A stretch of 64,000 nt of DNA from Acidicapsa acidisoli (GTDB lineage Bacteria > Acidobacteriota > Terriglobia > Terriglobales > Acidobacteriaceae): positions 682,001 to 746,000 of the forward strand of contig NZ_JAGSYI010000004.1 in assembly GCF_025685625.1 (NCBI RefSeq), read 5' to 3'. Positions within the stretch are counted from its first letter, which is position 1. Each line of letters starts with the position of its first letter. The notes below the pieces were generated by a model that did no database searches, had not been told where the DNA came from, and was given only the letters and a program-made list of their open reading frames with translations. Positions 38,358 to 47,575 of the stretch are shown one piece after another. Position numbers and translations under genes: made by a program.

Positions 38358-39863
38358 TTGTCTGGAACCTACATTCCGCTCATTTCCTCACTCGCAACAA
38401 AGCCCTTATTTGGCTCCAAATCGGGCGTCCTGCTCTTTGGGTTGGAATGCGCTCTTGGGATAATTTCAGTCGTTCTTGCAGCGGCTCTGGCGCACTGGTC
38501 GGAATGGCTGCTTCCTGTAGCGGTCCTCCTCTACCTTTTGATCGTGGTGCCAACAGCTTTACTTTGCGGATTCTGGCAGGCAGTTACCGTTTCGCTCTCT
38601 GCGGTCGTTATTCATGTTCTCTTTACGGCGCGCCAACCTGCGATCAATGCTGTAGCTGACCCGGCAAATTCCGTAACACTTGTTGCATTTGTTCTAACAG
38701 CCCTTGTGGTAAGCCGACTCTCCGCAAGCGTCACTAGACACGCACATGAGGCGGAGTCCTGGGGAGAACAAATGCACGACCTCTATGAGTTCAGCAGGAG
38801 GACATTGCAAATGAACCTCCACATGGAACCGGGTCCCCAATTAGCTGAACTCATTCATGAAATCTTTGCGCTGGAGGCTGTAGTCGTCTTCGACGCCGAT
38901 TTGCATGAGGTCTATCAAGCTGGATACTGGGGAGTTGACGCGCGCGATCTTGCCCAAAATGCTTATTTTTTTGATAAGTCGGATGAAGATCCCGCCACGG
39001 GTATAGGCCGACGCGTTCTTCGGCTGGGGGCGGTTCCTATTGGAAGCGTTGTGTTACGCGGAGACACAAGTCCACTTACGAACGACTCGATTGCCTCGTT
39101 GATCGCAATATCTTTTGATCGATACCGTGCCTATGTAAATGAGAGCAACATCGAAGCGGAGCACCGCACTGAGCAACTTCGGACAGCTGTGCTCGATAGC
39201 TTGGCGCACGCATATAAGACCCCACTTACTGCAATCCGTGCGGCCAGCACTGGTCTCGGTGAAATGAGCCACCTTACAGAAGCCCAATCGGAGCTTGTCG
39301 CGTTGATCGATGAGCAGACTGGCCTGCTGAATGATTTGACAACCCGTCTACTTGCTACCGCACGTCTGAATGCACAGGAGATCACTATCCATGCCACTTC
39401 AGTCGGCGTCAGTTCATTAATTGAAGAAGTCGTGACTAGTCTCAAAGATCGGCTATCGAGTATGAAGGTTGCAATAAAACTCGAGCGAGATGATTTGAAT
39501 CTTTGCTGTGATCGTCAACTCATGGTCGCGCTGCTTACGCAATACATAGACAACGCCTGTAAGTACTCAACATTTGGCACTACGATCACCATCGGAGTTG
39601 TCCAGTCTAGAAAAGAATTGATTTTCTCGGTGCACAGCTACGGTCCAGTAGTTCCGGTGACTGACCGCGAACGGATCTTCGACCGTTACTATCGTTCCTC
39701 AACATCCTCGAATGGCGCCAGTGGAACCGGAATCGGGCTGTCTGTTTCCAAGCGAATTGCCCGGGTTCACGGCGGTCATGTTTGGGTCACGAGTGATGAG
39801 GAACAAGGGACCATATTTTATGCGGCTATTCCTACCACATTGCACCAGAAAGGATCCGAATGA
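38358..39863 (+). CDS. KdpD-like sensor histidine kinase without the KdpD N-terminal domain
   Basis: A membrane kinase of 501 residues. The first half is a KdpD/DUF4118-type four-helix membrane block (about 25-125: VLLFGLECALGIISVVLAAA; LLPVAVLLYLLIVVPTALL), then a GAF-like region (about 150-260). The HisKA box is LDSLAHAYKTPLTAI, the N-box YIDNACKYS and G2 GTGIGLSVSKRIA. The G1 box reads HSYGPVVP, where DxGxG is usual, so the adenine-binding Asp is absent. The start is a TTG, the only start codon after the upstream stop, with GGAAAGG nearby. The gene overlaps the response-regulator gene by 4 bp. No kdpFABC is present, so potassium control is not implied. Confidence 0.88.
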   Translation: MSGTYIPLISSLATKPLFGSKSGVLLFGLECALGIISVVLAAALAHWSEWLLPVAVLLYLLIVVPTALLCGFWQAVTVSLSAVVIHVLFTARQPAINAVADPANSVTLVAFVLTALVVSRLSASVTRHAHEAESWGEQMHDLYEFSRRTLQMNLHMEPGPQLAELIHEIFALEAVVVFDADLHEVYQAGYWGVDARDLAQNAYFFDKSDEDPATGIGRRVLRLGAVPIGSVVLRGDTSPLTNDSIASLIAISFDRYRAYVNESNIEAEHRTEQLRTAVLDSLAHAYKTPLTAIRAASTGLGEMSHLTEAQSELVALIDEQTGLLNDLTTRLLATARLNAQEITIHATSVGVSSLIEEVVTSLKDRLSSMKVAIKLERDDLNLCCDRQLMVALLTQYIDNACKYSTFGTTITIGVVQSRKELIFSVHSYGPVVPVTDRERIFDRYYRSSTSSNGASGTGIGLSVSKRIARVHGGHVWVTSDEEQGTIFYAAIPTTLHQKGSE

Positions 39864-40651
39864 GCCAAACAGGCCTCCGAATTCTTATTGTAGACGACGA
39901 GCCGGCGATACGCAGAGCGCTACGGCCGCCGCTGCTCGACCTTGGATTTCAGGTAGTTGAAGCCTCCCGAGGGGAAGAGGCAATTCAGCAATTGAGGGCC
40001 GGGACTTTTGATGTGGTTTTGCTTGATATAAACATGCCAGGAATAGGCGGATTGGAGACGCTTCGCCGCATACGATTATTTGCGCCTCGCCTGCCAATCC
40101 TTATGGTGACCGTACGCGACGGAGAAGAAGAAAAAGTCGAAGCGCTGGAGTCGGGAGCTGACGACTATGTCACCAAGCCATTCAGTGCGCGCGAACTAAT
40201 CGCTCGAATCCGAACGGCTGTGCGGCGTATCCAAGCGCCAATCAGGCCCGAAGATGCGCCAATCGAGATTGGCGAGATTCGTCTGCTTCCAATACGTCGT
40301 ATTGTTACCATGCGCGGTCAGGCAATTCACATGACTCGCAAGGAATTTGACATCCTTCACTACCTGATGGCGAACGCAGGAAGAGTTGTGACCTACTCGA
40401 AGCTACTTACAGTGGTATGGGGGGATACATATCGCGAAGAAGTTGAATATCTTAGAACATTCATTCGCCTGCTGCGCAAAAAGCTGTGTGAAGATCCCTC
40501 TAATCCGACATATTTGCATACGGATGCGTACGTCGGGTACCGATTCGTCGACGCACAGGCCTTTGGAGAAATTGCATTGCAACGTTCGCATGAGTTGCAT
40601 CGAGCGGAAGAATCTCCGGAAGCGCTTCCCGATGACCTCTGCTCGAAATGA
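39860..40651 (+). CDS. KdpE-like response regulator
   Basis: An OmpR/KdpE-type regulator of 263 residues, coupled to the kinase by ATGA overlap. The receiver (about 1-120) has the acidic cluster ILIVDDEPAIRR, phospho-acceptor Asp in VVLLDINMPGIGG and Lys in DDYVTKPFSA. The winged helix (about 135-232) contains HMTRKEFDILHYLMANAGRV, VWGDTYREEVEYLRTFIRLL and the wing AYVGYRFVD. A 30-residue tail follows. It converges with the damaged second kinase gene. Targets may include the divergent porin/permease/glnII group or its own operon; only position supports this. Confidence 0.92.
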   Translation: MSQTGLRILIVDDEPAIRRALRPPLLDLGFQVVEASRGEEAIQQLRAGTFDVVLLDINMPGIGGLETLRRIRLFAPRLPILMVTVRDGEEEKVEALESGADDYVTKPFSARELIARIRTAVRRIQAPIRPEDAPIEIGEIRLLPIRRIVTMRGQAIHMTRKEFDILHYLMANAGRVVTYSKLLTVVWGDTYREEVEYLRTFIRLLRKKLCEDPSNPTYLHTDAYVGYRFVDAQAFGEIALQRSHELHRAEESPEALPDDLCSK

Positions 40652-40717: not shown

Positions 40718-42343
40718 CTATTTTGCGAGCGCATCGAAGTGAGAGAGGTCGTGCATGGAGTTGACTCCGCCCAGTAGACAGTGGCGAATCCAGCTACAAA
40801 TAGCGCGCCCATCGTCGATAGCCGATCGAGGTTTCCGTGAGAATATGATTTGGATTCCGCGGATCGTCTTCGATTTTTTGCGTAACTGACGAATAAAGGT
40901 ACGAAGATATTCAGGCTCGTTTCCGTACTCCGCTCCCCAGACCCACAGATGAGCGCGATTGGCATCTGCAGCCATCTTTACTGCGGAGAGCCCAATCCCC
41001 GTACCGGCCACCGTTTCTTTCGCCTCGGATGATCTATAAAAGCGTTCAAAGATTAGTTCGCGATCATCTAGATGGACAAGGGAGCCAAAATTATGTGCGG
41101 AGATGAGCAGGTCTGAAGTGCTCTTTCGCACGGCAATTTCGACGGGTGTCCCAGCAGTGGAGTACTTACACGCGTTCTCGATGAACTGAGAAAGAGCTAT
41201 CGTCAGGAGCCCGCGATTGGCGTATACATTAGCCGATTGTGCGTCCATAGTAATCTCGATTGGGTTGCGCTTCGAATCCGAATCACTACCGGATAGTACG
41301 TCCGAAATCAACTCATGAACATTCACTTCCTCCCTCCCTGTGTCAAAATGTTCTGCGTCGAGCTTTGCGGTTTGCAGCAGCCTTGTGCAGAGTTCGTTCA
41401 GGAAAGTCGCTTCTTTATCGATGAGCGATACCATATCGGATTGAGGTGATGCTAACCCTCCCATTTCTATTAAACCTGAACTAGCTGCTTGGATCGCTGT
41501 GAGCGGTGTCTTGAAATCATGAGCCAAAGCATCCAGGACTGCAGCCCTCAACTGCTCGCTTTGTTTCGCTGACTCAGCCCTGTTTTCCTTCTGAGTTACC
41601 TGATAACGCTCCGTCGCAGTTACGGCAAGTGAGGCAGGCGCGTTCAAGACAACAGAACTAAGCTCTCCGTGCACAACAAGGGATCCGACCGAGCGGTTTC
41701 CAATACGAAGAACTCGCCGCATACGTTGAGTTGGCAAATTATCGAATTCCGTGCCTCGCAGGTAACATTTCATCGCTACTTTCTCTTCGCCTCGATTCCA
41801 GTCTCCAGCAGTGGAAATACTACCGGCGCTTGCATCAAATAAAGCCGCACCGCGCACTCCAAATATCCTGTGGATCAAGATAGCGAGCTCCGGACCAAGT
41901 GCCTTGTTCAGGTCGAGTTGTAGAGACCTTTTGCTCAATTCATATAACTGCTCCATGCTTGCTCGCTCTTCTGTCGCTTCCCTTGCGTGCCTAAGCGCCC
42001 TCGCCAATAAGTTACTGATAACCAGTGCCGTTACCTCAAAGGACACAAGTGCAACATATCCGTGTGCACTGGAGACACGAAAACTATAGAGAGGAGATGT
42101 GAAGAAGAAATCCAGGCACGCAGCAGCAGCGCACGAAGTGACCGAAGCTAGCCAGAAGCCGCACAACAACGCCGACGAAATCACAAGGAACAGAAACAAA
42201 AGGCTCATCGTAGGCAGCGATGCGTGGAATAAGATCCCGCAGTAAGTGAGTAGCCCTAGGCCGGCAATCGCTGCTGGGAAGCACCACCATTTGCTGAGAC
42301 GCTGAATCGGCTGGATCCATCTCTTGAGGATCTGATTGTTCAA
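40718..42343 (-). pseudogene. KdpD-like kinase fused by deletion to a response-regulator tail
   Basis: A 541-residue open frame. Residues 1 to about 465 are a KdpD-like kinase paralogous to the one at 38358: a four-helix membrane block, GAF-like region, His box LDALAHDFKTPLTAI, N-box FIENACKYS and G2 GTGIGLSAVKMAAD. G1 is degenerate (AHNFGSLVH). At about 40937-40945 (HLWVWGAEYG) the sequence switches to the winged-helix end of a KdpE-like regulator: EPEYLRTFIRQLRKK, as in VEYLRTFIRLLRKK of the intact regulator. A lost base in the following A-run then shifts the frame; the correct frame reads IEDDPRNPNHILTE and ends GYRRWARYL. The regulator's receiver and most of its effector domain are gone. 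The kinase lacks only its last strands and may or may not be stable. Confidence 0.85.
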
Positions 42344-43830: not shown

Positions 43831-44613
43831 CTAAGAGTTTGACTGGGCTCGCACCAGAGACGCAACGAGGAGTTCGAGCTCGGCAGGATTGACGTCGCTC
43901 ACGGCAAGAATGCAGAGGTCTTGTGTGTTGGCGGAGTCAATCGTGAAACCCGCCTGGGTACTGCGCAGCACAGTGACAGGGCCGTTTGCTCGCTGGGTCA
44001 GGAAGATGGAAACCTGGTGCTTGTGAATAGTAAAGAGAAGCAGCGCTGCCGGTTGGCCGTTGAAATAGGTGAGATCTGCACCTATGAGAGTGGTGTCTGG
44101 AGGCAAGGCTGCCGCGTCAGGCAAATTGAAGCTGAAAGGAAGACGGCCCTGAAACCAGGGTTTGACGGTGTGGCGATCCGTGGAGATCACCTGCGGAGTT
44201 GTTCCACTGCCGAGCGTAGCCAGATGCTGGTCGAGAAGCTCGGCGGCGAGCCCATTGGTTCGATGTATCTGGCGCAAACCCAGGATTGACACGACGAGCA
44301 GAATGGCAGCGGCGAGAGCAGCCCAGGCTGTGGGGCGAATAGGGTAGATGCGTCCGATTTTCTTTGTTTGCCGCTGCGATTGGAGCTTCTGCGTGAGGCG
44401 CGCGAGCGATTCAGCCGTCGGCGAAAAGCGATGCCCAGCGTGCGCGGTGGCCGCCTTGAGCTGTGTGGCAGATAGGACTTGAAGCGCACAGGAATGGCAG
44501 TCGTTAAGATGCTGCTTCGCTTCCTGCTGTTCGCCCGCGGGCAGTTCGCCGTCGATGAAGGCGTTGAGTGTGTCTGGGGCGAGATGGTCGACAGGGTCGA
44601 TGCGTGGTGTCAT
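43831..44613 (-). CDS. Zinc-finger anti-sigma factor
   Basis: A single-pass membrane anti-sigma factor of 260 residues. The N-terminal ZAS domain (about 8-60) carries AFIDGELPAGE and the zinc site HLNDCHSC (H-x3-C-x2-C). A TM helix is at about 95-115 (WAALAAAILLVVSILGLRQI). The C-terminal part (about 120-258) is a periplasmic beta domain (DTTLIGADLTYFNGQPAALL). It probably holds the ECF sigma factor encoded two genes upstream. Its ATG overlaps the stop of the chimeric gene before it (ATGA), so translation is coupled along the sigma, chimera, anti-sigma chain. Confidence 0.88.
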   Translation of the reverse strand: MTPRIDPVDHLAPDTLNAFIDGELPAGEQQEAKQHLNDCHSCALQVLSATQLKAATAHAGHRFSPTAESLARLTQKLQSQRQTKKIGRIYPIRPTAWAALAAAILLVVSILGLRQIHRTNGLAAELLDQHLATLGSGTTPQVISTDRHTVKPWFQGRLPFSFNLPDAAALPPDTTLIGADLTYFNGQPAALLLFTIHKHQVSIFLTQRANGPVTVLRSTQAGFTIDSANTQDLCILAVSDVNPAELELLVASLVRAQSNS

Positions 44614-45068
44614 TGGGATTTCCTGTGTTGCAGGATGAGAAGTTGGCAGAGGGTGTCTCGCGCATCCGAGATACGTGAGGTCACAGTGCTGATGGGGATA
44701 TCGAGGATGAGAGCGATGTCTCTGTAGCCAAGTTCTTCTACGTCACATAGAAGAAGAACCTCGCGAAGGGTTGGTTGAAGCTGATTAACCGCAGCGAGAA
44801 GTGCTGGCTGGCTGTCAATGTAGACGAGGTTGTCTCTTTGGGACAGGTTGGTTTTGGCAGTACAGACCGCGCGGGGAGCGAATCGAAGACCTACGCGGGC
44901 GATCGCTGCTTTCAACTCTTTACCGGAAACAACATAGAGCGCGCAAAAGCGGCAGTACTTCACATGGTGCCGAATTTTCTCCTCTTCACCGACGTGCAGC
45001 TCACCGTCGACGAAGCAGTTCAGCGTCCACGGATCAATATGTTTGCTTCGTAGCTTATTTCTAATCAC
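44610..45068 (-). CDS. Chimeric protein: anti-sigma zinc-finger domain fused to sigma region 4
   Basis: A 152-residue open frame that starts at a GTG overlapping the sigma-factor stop (GTGA), six bases after GGGAGGA. Residues 1 to about 65 are a ZAS anti-sigma domain: WTLNCFVDGELHVGEEEKI, then HHVKYCRFCALYVVSGKELK with the H-x3-C-x2-C site. It closely parallels the full anti-sigma downstream. Residues about 80-150 are ECF sigma region 4: LQPTLREVLLLCDVEELGYR, DIALILDIPISTVTSRISDA, parallel to the sigma factor upstream. There is no region 2, linker, TM helix or stop between the two parts. It looks like sigma-anti-sigma-sigma-anti-sigma reduced by one in-frame deletion. It is intact and coupled at both ends, so it is probably expressed. 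Confidence 0.85.
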   Translation of the reverse strand: MIRNKLRSKHIDPWTLNCFVDGELHVGEEEKIRHHVKYCRFCALYVVSGKELKAAIARVGLRFAPRAVCTAKTNLSQRDNLVYIDSQPALLAAVNQLQPTLREVLLLCDVEELGYRDIALILDIPISTVTSRISDARDTLCQLLILQHRKSQ

Positions 45069-45685
45069 AGGGATCCTCCCAGCTGCGGCCGCAAGAGTTC
45101 TCGAAGGGTTTGCCGGGCGCGTGAGACACGGGACATTACCGTGCCGATGGGCACGCCGAGAATCAGGGCGATGTCCTTGTACTTCATCTCCTCGACATCG
45201 CAAAGCAGGAGAACTTCGCGAAGTGATGGCTGAAGCTTCTCGAGAGCGTCTTGCAGGACCTTCTGGTTGTCGAGATGAATGACGTTCTCCTCCGGAGTCG
45301 GGTCGGCTGCAACTATATCGAATGGGGATTCGTGGTCTTCAAGAAAGACCGTGCGGGAAGCAGCAATGCCCGTTCGTGAGGTGAGGAAGGTATTGCGCAG
45401 AATACAAAATATCCAAGCCTTGAAGTTGGTGGAGGGCTGGAAGGAGTCAAAAGCACGGAGAGCTTTGGAGAAAGTCTCTTGAACGATGTCTTCTGCCTCG
45501 GCGGGGTTGCGGGCAAGCCAAAAGGCGTGGTTGTAAAGCGAAACCAGGAGCGGCAAAGCGAGTTCCTCAAAGGTTGCGCTCTGCGTGGTAGTCAACGGCA
45601 TACTGCGGGGTGCCTCGGTCTGTCTGAGCTTGCGTGGTTCTAGCGACATCGCGGATAAAGCAGGTAGACCTTGAGAGCTGAACAT
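45065..45685 (-). CDS. ECF-type RNA polymerase sigma factor
   Basis: A sigma-70 family ECF factor, about 206 residues from the ATG at 45685. The start is uncertain: ATGs at 45649 and 45601 are also in frame, and none has a strong ribosome site. Region 2 contains LPLLVSLYNHAFWLARNPAE, EDIVQETFSKALRAFDSFQ and NFKAWIFCILRNTFL. Region 4 contains LQPSLREVLLLCDVEEMKYK and DIALILGVPIGTVMSRVSRA. The two are joined by the usual acidic linker. It leads a coupled minus-strand chain with the chimera and the anti-sigma factor. It is divergent from the metallophosphoesterase/cytochrome genes 122 bp away, which are plausible targets. Confidence 0.92.
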   Translation of the reverse strand: MFSSQGLPALSAMSLEPRKLRQTEAPRSMPLTTTQSATFEELALPLLVSLYNHAFWLARNPAEAEDIVQETFSKALRAFDSFQPSTNFKAWIFCILRNTFLTSRTGIAASRTVFLEDHESPFDIVAADPTPEENVIHLDNQKVLQDALEKLQPSLREVLLLCDVEEMKYKDIALILGVPIGTVMSRVSRARQTLRELLRPQLGGSL

Positions 45686-45806
45686 CTCTACTGTTAACCA
45701 AATCTCAGACAAATTATTCCATGAATTGTTTTCAGGCCGCTTGGAATAAGGATCGACTTCGCCAGTTTTGTGTAGTGTAGGCAATCACAAAGAAATGGAG
45801 ATCAGT

Positions 45807-46808
45807 ATGAATCGGTTTAAGGAAGACGAAGAAGTACAGGACAGCCAGGCAGTCAGGCAGTCTGCAGGCGATGGCATCGACCGGCGCAATTTTCTTGGAT
45901 GTATGGCGTGGGCAGGCACGGGTCTCCTGTGGTCGATGGTTGGCGGCGTGCCTGCCTCCAGGCTTCTCGCGCAAACAATGAAGGGTGGCCCCTCGGGGGT
46001 TGGGAAGGCAGCGGACTTCACTTTTGTGCAGATCAGCGACAGTCACATAGGCTTTAACAAAGGTGCAAACCCGGATGTGACCGGCACGCTCACCAAGGCG
46101 ATCGATAAGGTCAATCTGGTACCTGCAGGTATGAAGGCGCCCGATTTCATGATCCACACCGGCGACATCACGCAGAACTCCAAGGCAGTGGAGTTCGACA
46201 CAGCCGCACAGGTGATCAAGAGCGCAAAGGTCGGCGAGGTGTTCTACGTTCCCGGCGAGCACGATTTTATCGACGACGGCGAACAGTACAAGGGGCGTTT
46301 CGGCAAAGGAACACAAGGCAATGGCTGGTACAGCTATAACCACAAAGGCGTTCACTTTGTAGGTCTGAATAATTGCGTGCAGGTCGATGCGATGGGCAAC
46401 ATGGGCGGCGATCAATTGGCGTGGCTGAAGTCTGATCTGGCAGGATTGAGCCATTCGACGCCGATCGTAGTATTCGCTCATATTCCGCTGTGGATGGTCT
46501 ATGAAAAGTGGGGCTGGGGCACGAAGGACGGTGAGCAGGCACTCGCCATGCTCAAACCTTTTGGCTCGGTGACCGTCCTCAATGGCCACATTCACCAGGT
46601 TGTCCAGAAAGTGGAAGGCAACGTTGCGTTTCATACCGCCATGGCGACGGCCTTTCCGCAACCAGCCCCAGGAGCCGCGCCGAATCCAGGGCCGATGATG
46701 GTTCCCGCCGGCAAACTCGAAAGCGTGCTCGGAGTGACAAAGGTCCAGCTCGTTCACGGACACGCCCATCTCGCTGTGGTCGATTCAACCTTGGCGGAGA
46801 CGGCTTAA
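45807..46808 (+). CDS. Tat-exported metallophosphoesterase with GEHD motif
   Basis: A calcineurin-like phosphoesterase of 333 residues. The ATG at 45807 follows GGAG by seven bases; an upstream in-frame start at 45768 is unsupported. The Tat signal is DRRNFLGCMAWAGTGLLWSM. Metal motifs are FVQISDSHIGF, MIHTGDITQN, YVPGEHDFIDD, VVFAHIPLW and VLNGHIHQVV. The third motif has Glu where GNHD normally supplies the bridging and general-acid region, a substitution seen in a subgroup of these Tat proteins. The stop overlaps the next start (TAATG), so it is coupled to a cytochrome c gene, which suggests a periplasmic redox-linked role. The substrate is unknown. Confidence 0.88.
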   Translation: MNRFKEDEEVQDSQAVRQSAGDGIDRRNFLGCMAWAGTGLLWSMVGGVPASRLLAQTMKGGPSGVGKAADFTFVQISDSHIGFNKGANPDVTGTLTKAIDKVNLVPAGMKAPDFMIHTGDITQNSKAVEFDTAAQVIKSAKVGEVFYVPGEHDFIDDGEQYKGRFGKGTQGNGWYSYNHKGVHFVGLNNCVQVDAMGNMGGDQLAWLKSDLAGLSHSTPIVVFAHIPLWMVYEKWGWGTKDGEQALAMLKPFGSVTVLNGHIHQVVQKVEGNVAFHTAMATAFPQPAPGAAPNPGPMMVPAGKLESVLGVTKVQLVHGHAHLAVVDSTLAETA

Positions 46809-47575
46809 TGCGTACGTGGACTATAGCCGCGCTAGCTTTGGCCGCAATTGTGGGCCTTGGGTATATACACCCGTTTGGCAATCCACGTGTTGAGCCTGCA
46901 AGGGGGCTCGACACGCTGTTACTGAGCGCCAATATGCCCGCGAATACCAAGGCTGTGCTGGTCGCAAAGTGCGCCGATTGCCACTCGAATGAGACAAGGT
47001 GGCCAGTGTACGCGCGGATTGCCCCGGGATCCTGGCTCATCGAACGGGACATCGTCAAAGCAAGAGAGGAAATGAACCTGTCGCGCTGGGACCAAATTCC
47101 CCCAGAGAAGCAAGAGGTCTTGAAGGCAAAGATCGTTCAAGAAGCCAAGAGCGGGGACATGCCTCCTGTGCAGTATCTGGCGCTGCATTGGACTGCGAAG
47201 CTCTCCTCTCGCGATGTCCAGGCTCTCGCCATGTTGAGCCAACACGCAGTTGGAGGCGAAGCCGCTTTAACGGGCCTCGGCGATCCTATGCGGGGCCAGG
47301 CAGTATTTGAGAAGCGTTGTACCGGTTGCCACGCGATCGAAGTGAATCGAGAAGGACCCAGGCTCGCCGGAGTGTTTGGCCGGCAGGCGGGAAGTGTGGC
47401 TGGGTTTACCTATTCCGCAAAATTGAAGAAGTCGGGCATTACTTGGGATGACGCAACTCTCGATAAGTGGCTCAGCGATCCGGATCTCATGGTCCCCGAT
47501 AACGATATGAGCATCAACGTTCCCAAAGCGGCGGATCGGCAGGATCTAATCGCGTTTCTGAAGCAGAAACAGTAA
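46808..47575 (+). CDS. Di-haem cytochrome c (haem-binding domain plus class I cytochrome c)
   Basis: A periplasmic electron carrier of 255 residues, anchored or exported by an N-terminal helix (WTIAALALAAIVGLGYIHPF). Domain 1 (about 35-150) carries CADCH with downstream RWPVYARIAPGSW and the conserved GDMPPVQYLALHW, typical of the Haem_bd family. Domain 2 (about 160-253) is a class I cytochrome c with CTGCHAIE, GPRLAGVFGRQAGS and the distal Met in NDMSINV. It is coupled to the metallophosphoesterase by start/stop overlap, and the pair probably act together in the periplasm. Confidence 0.92.
   Translation: MRTWTIAALALAAIVGLGYIHPFGNPRVEPARGLDTLLLSANMPANTKAVLVAKCADCHSNETRWPVYARIAPGSWLIERDIVKAREEMNLSRWDQIPPEKQEVLKAKIVQEAKSGDMPPVQYLALHWTAKLSSRDVQALAMLSQHAVGGEAALTGLGDPMRGQAVFEKRCTGCHAIEVNREGPRLAGVFGRQAGSVAGFTYSAKLKKSGITWDDATLDKWLSDPDLMVPDNDMSINVPKAADRQDLIAFLKQKQ

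Follow-up and report, generated by a model that had tools for sequence, protein, structure and literature searches.

Between a complete ECF sigma factor gene and a complete gene for a membrane anti-sigma factor, the window (the whole 64,000-nucleotide stretch of Acidicapsa acidisoli DNA that was analysed) contains an intact frame of 152 codons, with a GTG start and no internal stop. It occupies positions 44610..45068 of the minus strand. Its product joins a zinc anti-sigma (ZAS) domain to sigma region 4 on one chain, as judged from Pfam, homology and an AlphaFold2 model, and is called the chimera below. The ZAS half comprises residues 1 to about 70 (44858..45068, minus strand), and the region 4 half residues from about 73 to 152 (44610..44850, minus strand).

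Pfam places Sigma70_r4_2 at residues 89-140 of the chimera, above the cut-off (E 1.1e-13). The zf-HC2 match stays below it (E 0.065; 13.8 bits versus 22.2), so that the identity of the ZAS half rests on its homology to the anti-sigma N-terminus and on the conserved columns that it has kept. Sigma70_r2 is absent at E 0.1, hence the chimera is without region 2; a receiver domain is not matched either, and a PhyR_sigma-like match (E 0.028) falls below the cut-off. The ZAS half is 46-48% identical to the neighbouring anti-sigma over 63-69 aa. Over 66 aa, the region 4 half and the neighbouring sigma factor share 61% identity, and the two align without a gap as far as the stop codon; inside neither half is there an insertion or deletion relative to the parents. 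The fusion itself and the paralogy of its halves to the flanking genes, both proposed in a first-pass annotation of the sequence, are thereby borne out.

The chimera shares a GTGA overlap with the sigma gene (45065-45068) and an ATGA overlap with the anti-sigma gene (44610-44613), and upstream of each overlap lies a stretch rich in purines; translational coupling on both sides had been suggested from these same overlaps, and both are present. The highest 19-residue Kyte-Doolittle mean of the chimera is 1.28, compared with 2.34 in the anti-sigma. By hydropathy it has no membrane helix, as the annotation had also stated, and the product is probably soluble.

The parental sigma factor (45065..45784, minus strand) possesses both regions 2 and 4 (Pfam Sigma70_r2, E 1.6e-14; Sigma70_r4_2, E 3.9e-17) and was identified in addition by its identity to relatives. 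In the 45601-45784 region, its longest frame opens at a TTG within the divergent phosphoesterase frame. The true start is probably the ATG at 45649 or 45601, which leaves intergenic space for divergent promoters. The anti-sigma (43831..44613, minus strand), recognised by zf-HC2 (E 6.7e-7), hydropathy and identity to relatives, carries its ZAS at the N-terminus, followed by a single hydrophobic segment at residues 95-113 and by a C-terminal domain.

On the plus strand, the longest frame of a calcineurin-like phosphoesterase (45768..46808; Pfam Metallophos, E 2.5e-11) is followed by a haem-binding/cytochrome c protein (46808..47575; Haem_bd, E 6.6e-34; Cytochrom_C, E 1.6e-10). The phosphoesterase gene lies divergently beside the sigma gene, an arrangement shared by the three relatives' loci examined closely (L009, L010 and L013).

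About 2 kb from the chimera, a sensor kinase frame (40718-42343, minus strand) shares 41% identity with the kinase at 38358-39863. At 'VWG' it passes into a piece of a regulator, in which 17 of 23 residues equal those of the regulator at 39860-40651; the apparent remainder of the regulator tail lies in another frame. The Pfam matches of kinase and regulator are DUF4118, HisKA and HATPase_c, and Response_reg and Trans_reg_C, respectively; we take the two to be KdpD-like and KdpE-like. Judged from its sequence, this kinase/regulator pair looks like a collapsed, decaying and frame-shifted one.

Distribution and origin of the chimera

For comparison we collected 48 distinct loci of relatives in which the sigma and the anti-sigma each score more than 90 bits by tblastn, lower-scoring loci being left out; the loci were fetched for their resemblance to the chimera and form a non-random sample. 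In all 48 operons the sigma and anti-sigma genes adjoin. The distance from the sigma stop to the H-x3-C motif of the ZAS is 73-107 nt in 47 of them and 195 nt in one (L030). In the window, 553 nt separate the sigma stop from the motif of the true anti-sigma, because the chimera sits in between. When compared over the aligned stretches with the 22 nearest two-gene operons, the window sigma shows 63-72% identity to their sigma factors and the window anti-sigma 48-67% to their anti-sigmas. Twelve of 14 other genomes of the genus were searched with the window sigma (E 1e-25); only two gave a match, with an identity of 43-44%, which makes the operon's distribution in the genus patchy. That other genera of the family nevertheless have it at 63-72% would point to loss or to horizontal gain.

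A protein query for a second fusion of ZAS and region 4 found none in 100 relatives, in 398 genomes of the family, in 62, 3 and 28 members of three genera, or in 396 genomes of the phylum and 397 of the order, and a profile search found none in 399 genomes of the class; the sets overlap, those of the 100 relatives, family, phylum, order and class take in the window's own genome, and the four sets of about 400 genomes were each drawn from a larger group, no more than nine candidates being scored per genome (no more than ten for the class). The genome search for the same domain order, which the first-pass annotation had put forward as a check on conservation, thus finds the fusion in this genome only, relatives having separate genes. 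The evidence for the chimera comes from one genome.

Several matches that appeared to extend into both halves were rejected. In the family set (G317, residues 3-122 and 8-148; G256, 9-148; G299, 3-117) and in the class set (G201 and G267, 1-130; G323, 1-120), they fall in anti-sigma frames of 308-313 aa located beside a sigma gene. The first 150 residues of the anti-sigma frames of these six genomes were inspected, and the matches were counted as weak extensions past the ZAS. A match at 45-145 in the set of 100 relatives (G036) falls in a sigma frame. Among 10 plasmid records none reached a query cover of at least 80%, the best (67%) being annotated as a sigma factor; phages gave no match to the chimera and viral contigs no confirmed one. 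A six-peptide scan of named genomes, which detects close relatives only, returned three loci with region 4 only. No protein with a ZAS followed by region 4 was found in the literature searched, which is not proof of its absence in print. As a separate observation, a region-4 match at G776:C98:18428-18601 lies in a 125-aa frame, possibly a short or broken sigma factor.

The two gene boundaries in the window lie 455 nt apart (45065 to 44610 and 45068 to 44613). This period delimits two copies of a unit made of sigma region 4, the gene boundary and the ZAS, which extend over approximately 44858..45298 and 44403..44843 (minus strand). The spacing from stop to ZAS motif is 98 nt in both copies, a value also found in 7 of the 48 relatives' operons, and the DNA distance between the copies is nearly equal for region 4 (0.396) and the ZAS (0.398). 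A single tandem duplication of about 455 bp, starting just ahead of sigma region 4 and ending just past the anti-sigma ZAS, would leave both parents intact and create a new in-frame ZAS-region 4 gene at its junction. We infer such a one-step origin, with no need for a deletion; it fits because the copies share the 98-nt spacing and their halves have diverged almost equally. A laboratory precedent for a one-step event in a sigma gene may be seen in Staphylococcus aureus, for which a 1210-bp tandem duplication that gave nusG'-'sigH and left both parent genes intact is described (PMC3486894).

The first-pass annotation had pictured two sigma/anti-sigma pairs collapsed by one deletion. Duplication of the whole pair, followed by a deletion from the first anti-sigma into the second sigma, does yield the identical final map and would fit as well; its deletion, however, is dispensable, one duplication being enough, and we regard this two-event route as unlikely where a single event suffices. 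Two family genomes possess two copies of the orthologous pair, which means that the sigma/anti-sigma system also duplicates as a whole: in G256 the copies are on two contigs (C3:3177 and C2:1187885) and in G317 they are 0.37 Mb apart (C2:4554695 and C2:4926135), the loci of these duplicated pairs being L038, L043, L060 and L061. In the roughly 3-kb loci of the relatives' operons, on the other hand, there is no second pair, with flanks too short to reveal every tandem pair.

Selection, conserved positions and predicted structure

Protein trees of 49 rows each were computed for the ZAS and for region 4. In the first, the sister of the chimera ZAS is the anti-sigma of the window itself (87/85, not starred and not decisive); in the second, the chimera region 4 belongs to a 22-row group that comprises the two window rows and 20 rows of relatives (96/84). 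The free region-4 tree puts the chimera with sigma factors of relatives and not beside the window's own (86/88, not starred); a tree with the two window rows as sisters has a log-likelihood 0.26 above the free tree and is not rejected (p-AU 0.544). For the joined codons, the likelihood of the sister placement is about 4 log units better than that of either of the two alternatives tried. The chimera branches are long, with 1.11 and 1.9 changes per column versus 0.27 and 0.15 for the parents.

A purpose-built codon model of 12 sequences, 10 of them relatives picked from the ortholog group, shows that the chimera is kept by purifying selection. On the fusion branch, omega is 0.214 for region 4 (75 codons; omega=1 rejected with 2dlnL 8.07, p 0.0045), 0.133 for the ZAS (56 codons; 2dlnL 9.40, p 0.0022) and 0.157 for the joined halves (2dlnL 18.0, p 2e-5); with synonymous sites near saturation these values are rough, and the rejection of omega=1 is the result. 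Neutrality of the joined halves is also rejected under two other placements (2dlnL 21.0 and 20.8), and their omega is not significantly greater than the background of 0.125. Differences by codon position, parents' branches included, amount to 23/16/50 of 75 codons and 18/16/36 of 58. Of 300 frames simulated neutrally without indels, 20% are open at a p-distance of 0.17, 8% at 0.24 and 3% at 0.36; on this scale, the 0.40 between the copies is a total of which the fusion branch takes a share. Some of the selection signal may be older than the fusion, should a deletion have acted on a complete second pair.

A pseudogene or an assembly error was considered and rejected, given the undamaged frame, the rejection of omega=1 and no sign of an assembly fault in the assembled sequence. 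The first-pass annotation had itself named an outcome that would speak against its reading: separate genes in close relatives and a fusion confined to this strain under relaxed selection. The genes are indeed separate in relatives and the fusion occurs only here, but selection is not relaxed to neutral.

In the ZAS half, residues H10, H35, C39 and C42 are kept, i.e. the H-x3-C-x2-C motif and the upstream His ligand position; by analogy they would bind zinc. The chimera retains all 8 of the broadly conserved ZAS columns (47 anti-sigma rows), as well as the aspartate D21. When conservation is judged on the 23 rows of the nearest group, it retains 13 of 19 columns and has changed 6.

AlphaFold2 was run on 32 rows with structure alignment A2, a first alignment (A1) having been dropped for its ZAS rows scattered over region 4. 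The model has a mean pLDDT of 79.7 and a pTM of 0.49, and because of the latter it does not fix the relative placement of the domains, in cis or in trans. It predicts that helices 13-62 and helices 87-151 each form a folded domain and that a low-confidence linker connects them. The predicted ZAS helices span residues 13-20, 26-38 and 40-62 and form a three-helix bundle, with pLDDT block means of 89-95 for residues 11-50; the region 4 helices run from 87 to 151. RsiW is described as contacting SigW region 4 through helices 1-3 and region 2 through a fourth helix (PMC5358783). The model of the chimera has no such fourth ZAS helix: helix 3 is followed by the linker and then by region 4.

In the Foldseek search a single match reached an E of 0.001 or better, and sigma factors made up most of the many weaker ones. 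The model aligns with 2h27_A, a region 4 with DNA, over 56 columns at 1.0 Å (E 0.0097). The weaker matches include 3hug, titled RslA with the -35 promoter binding domain. We take RslA to be a ZAS protein, and the entry title then indicates that a ZAS protein can hold an isolated region 4.

Region 4 was compared with 48 rows anchored on GTVMSR: 46 relatives' loci, one paralog from the same genome and the window sigma. Of its 64 columns, 24 are at least 90% conserved, and the chimera retains 21 of these. The three lost ones (G127S, M130T and R135D) are all in the recognition helix and are each invariant in the 48 sigma factors; with respect to the helix consensus GTVMSR..RAR, the chimera has S, T and D at the G, the M and the first R of RAR, while T128, S131, R132 and R137 are unchanged. 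When each real sigma is left out in turn, 47 of 48 have no deviation in this helix and one has a single deviation. Counting all conserved columns of this broad set, 2 of the 48 deviate at three or four columns and the chimera at three; the clustering of its losses in the recognition helix has a p of 0.04. Against the 23 rows of the nearest group, 26 of 34 columns are retained in the chimera and five of its eight changes lie outside the recognition helix, which is therefore not singled out there.

In the alignment with 2h27, the positions of G127, M130 and R135 are those of E. coli sigma-E G168, R171 and R176, in a numbering of our own count, which we presume to be correct. These sigma-E residues are reported to contact the -35 element (PMC6713349). 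What M130T does is difficult to assess, since the relatives' sigma factors have Met and not Arg at the R171 position; R135D is a charge reversal. Region 4 of the chimera is probably devoid of DNA binding, and the first-pass suggestion that it could bind -35 elements is disfavoured by these alterations of otherwise invariant residues.

The same helix may matter for the anti-sigma too. D16 of RsiW and its neighbours are described as contacting K170, H174 and R177 of SigW region 4, and the SigW recognition helix as contacting the anti-sigma too (PMC5358783). The three SigW residues correspond to T130 (changed), S134 and R137 of the chimera, the last two being as in the window sigma. By analogy with SigW, the changes in the recognition helix may also weaken anti-sigma binding.

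Possible roles and known systems

Our tentative reading, which we hold as possible and no more firmly than that, combines the one-step duplication with a soluble, selected buffer of the parental pair that works mainly as a region 4 bait for the membrane anti-sigma. The chimera would act as a stoichiometric buffer. Its region 4, with most of the core retained along with the position equivalent to the SigW anti-sigma contact R177, would occupy the ZAS of the membrane anti-sigma as an anti-anti-sigma bait; its own ZAS, without the RsiW-type helix that holds region 2, would bind region 4 weakly, in cis or in trans. The net effect would be a shifted threshold for sigma release. We infer all these binding steps. 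A bait for the anti-sigma seems somewhat more likely than an extra anti-sigma, and both may act together; the bait is ranked higher because, in nearest-group columns, region 4 retains 26 of 34 and the ZAS 13 of 19, and because the ZAS has lost the region-2 helix. A stricter version, in which the chimera was born in one step, gave up DNA binding and is a double decoy, with region 4 acting on the anti-sigma and the ZAS on the sigma, is rather doubtful.

It is likewise rather improbable that the chimera is simply an extra soluble anti-sigma, its ZAS sequestering the sigma in the cytoplasm and its region 4 tuning the affinity as a cis lid or a dimerisation module. Such a role would suit the eight broad ZAS columns and the H/H/C/C positions kept, the ZAS omega of 0.13 with omega=1 rejected, the predicted three-helix bundle and the solubility suggested by hydropathy; it agrees less well with a ZAS that ends after helix 3, where a low-confidence linker replaces the RsiW-type fourth helix, and with the six altered nearest-group columns. 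A neutral by-product of duplication, open by chance and in slow decay, would account for the occurrence in a single genome, the long branches and the weak zf-HC2 score, and the collapsed kinase/regulator pair means that the neighbourhood does carry decaying rearranged copies. We consider it quite unlikely all the same: omega=1 is rejected for both halves taken singly and, whichever of the three placements is assumed, for the two together, the codon-position differences (which include the parents' branches) speak against it, few simulated neutral frames are open at p-distances of 0.24 and 0.36, and no indel has entered either half.

That the frame was kept only for its overlaps, as a translational spacer coupling anti-sigma to sigma translation, is very unlikely. 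Both overlaps and their upstream purine-rich stretches are kept as such a spacer would have it, yet coupling alone would not preserve interior amino acids, and omega is well below 1. Still less credible is a DNA-binding competitor, in which the chimera region 4 would sit on -35 elements and block the sigma factor: the region 4 fold is kept, together with T128, S131, R132 and R137, but G127S, M130T and the charge reversal R135D fall at positions aligned to -35 contacts.

On the preferred reading, that of a buffer born by one duplication, a single mutation could add a third and antagonistic member to a regulatory operon. A duplication across the boundary of two interacting genes would produce a chimera with half of each interface, whose gene is from the outset part of the shared transcript and coupled in translation. 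Should the binding be demonstrated, the chimera would represent a minimal sigma decoy of natural origin and a clear example, in bacteria, of a new regulatory gene maintained by selection.

The ZAS anti-sigmas (RsiW with SigW, RslA, ChrR and RsrA) resemble the chimera in their H/H/C/C arrangement and three-helix bundle. To our knowledge, none of these four contains a sigma domain; the chimera differs in having region 4 after the ZAS on one chain, and in missing the fourth helix.

Competition of a sigma-like domain for the anti-sigma factor, as we propose for the chimera, is described for PhyR/NepR/EcfG (PMC8999054). PhyR, however, is a response regulator with a phosphorylated receiver, whereas the chimera consists of region 4 and a ZAS without a receiver. 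Sigma and anti-sigma parts on a single chain, another common point, are described in the same source for SCO4117 (ECF52), IutY (ECF243) and some ECF36 members; the ECF52 extensions include a zinc finger, likely a ZAS, and some ECF36 members have an N-terminal anti-sigma extension with DUF2275 (PMC8999054). These are membrane-bound sigma factors with an attached inhibitor. In contrast, the chimera has no region 2, is probably soluble and is encoded alongside a complete sigma and a complete anti-sigma.

Region 4 as a polypeptide of its own is reported for SigO-RsoA of Bacillus subtilis (PMC8103513). SigO and RsoA jointly start transcription, whereas the chimera stands beside a complete sigma and has an altered recognition helix. 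Similar in genetic origin are the S. aureus fusions nusG'-'sigH and rplK'-'sigH, where the front of the downstream gene is described as fused in frame to most of the upstream sigma gene (PMC3486894). In these short-junction tandem duplications, as in the origin proposed here, the parents stay intact and one event is enough; the sigH fusions, though, are laboratory-born and active as sigma factors, while the chimera has diverged from its parents and is without region 2. Sigma mimicry, ZAS inhibitors, single-chain sigma/anti-sigma fusions and split sigma factors were thus known already; what appears to be new is a free-standing ZAS-region 4 protein encoded between its two parents.
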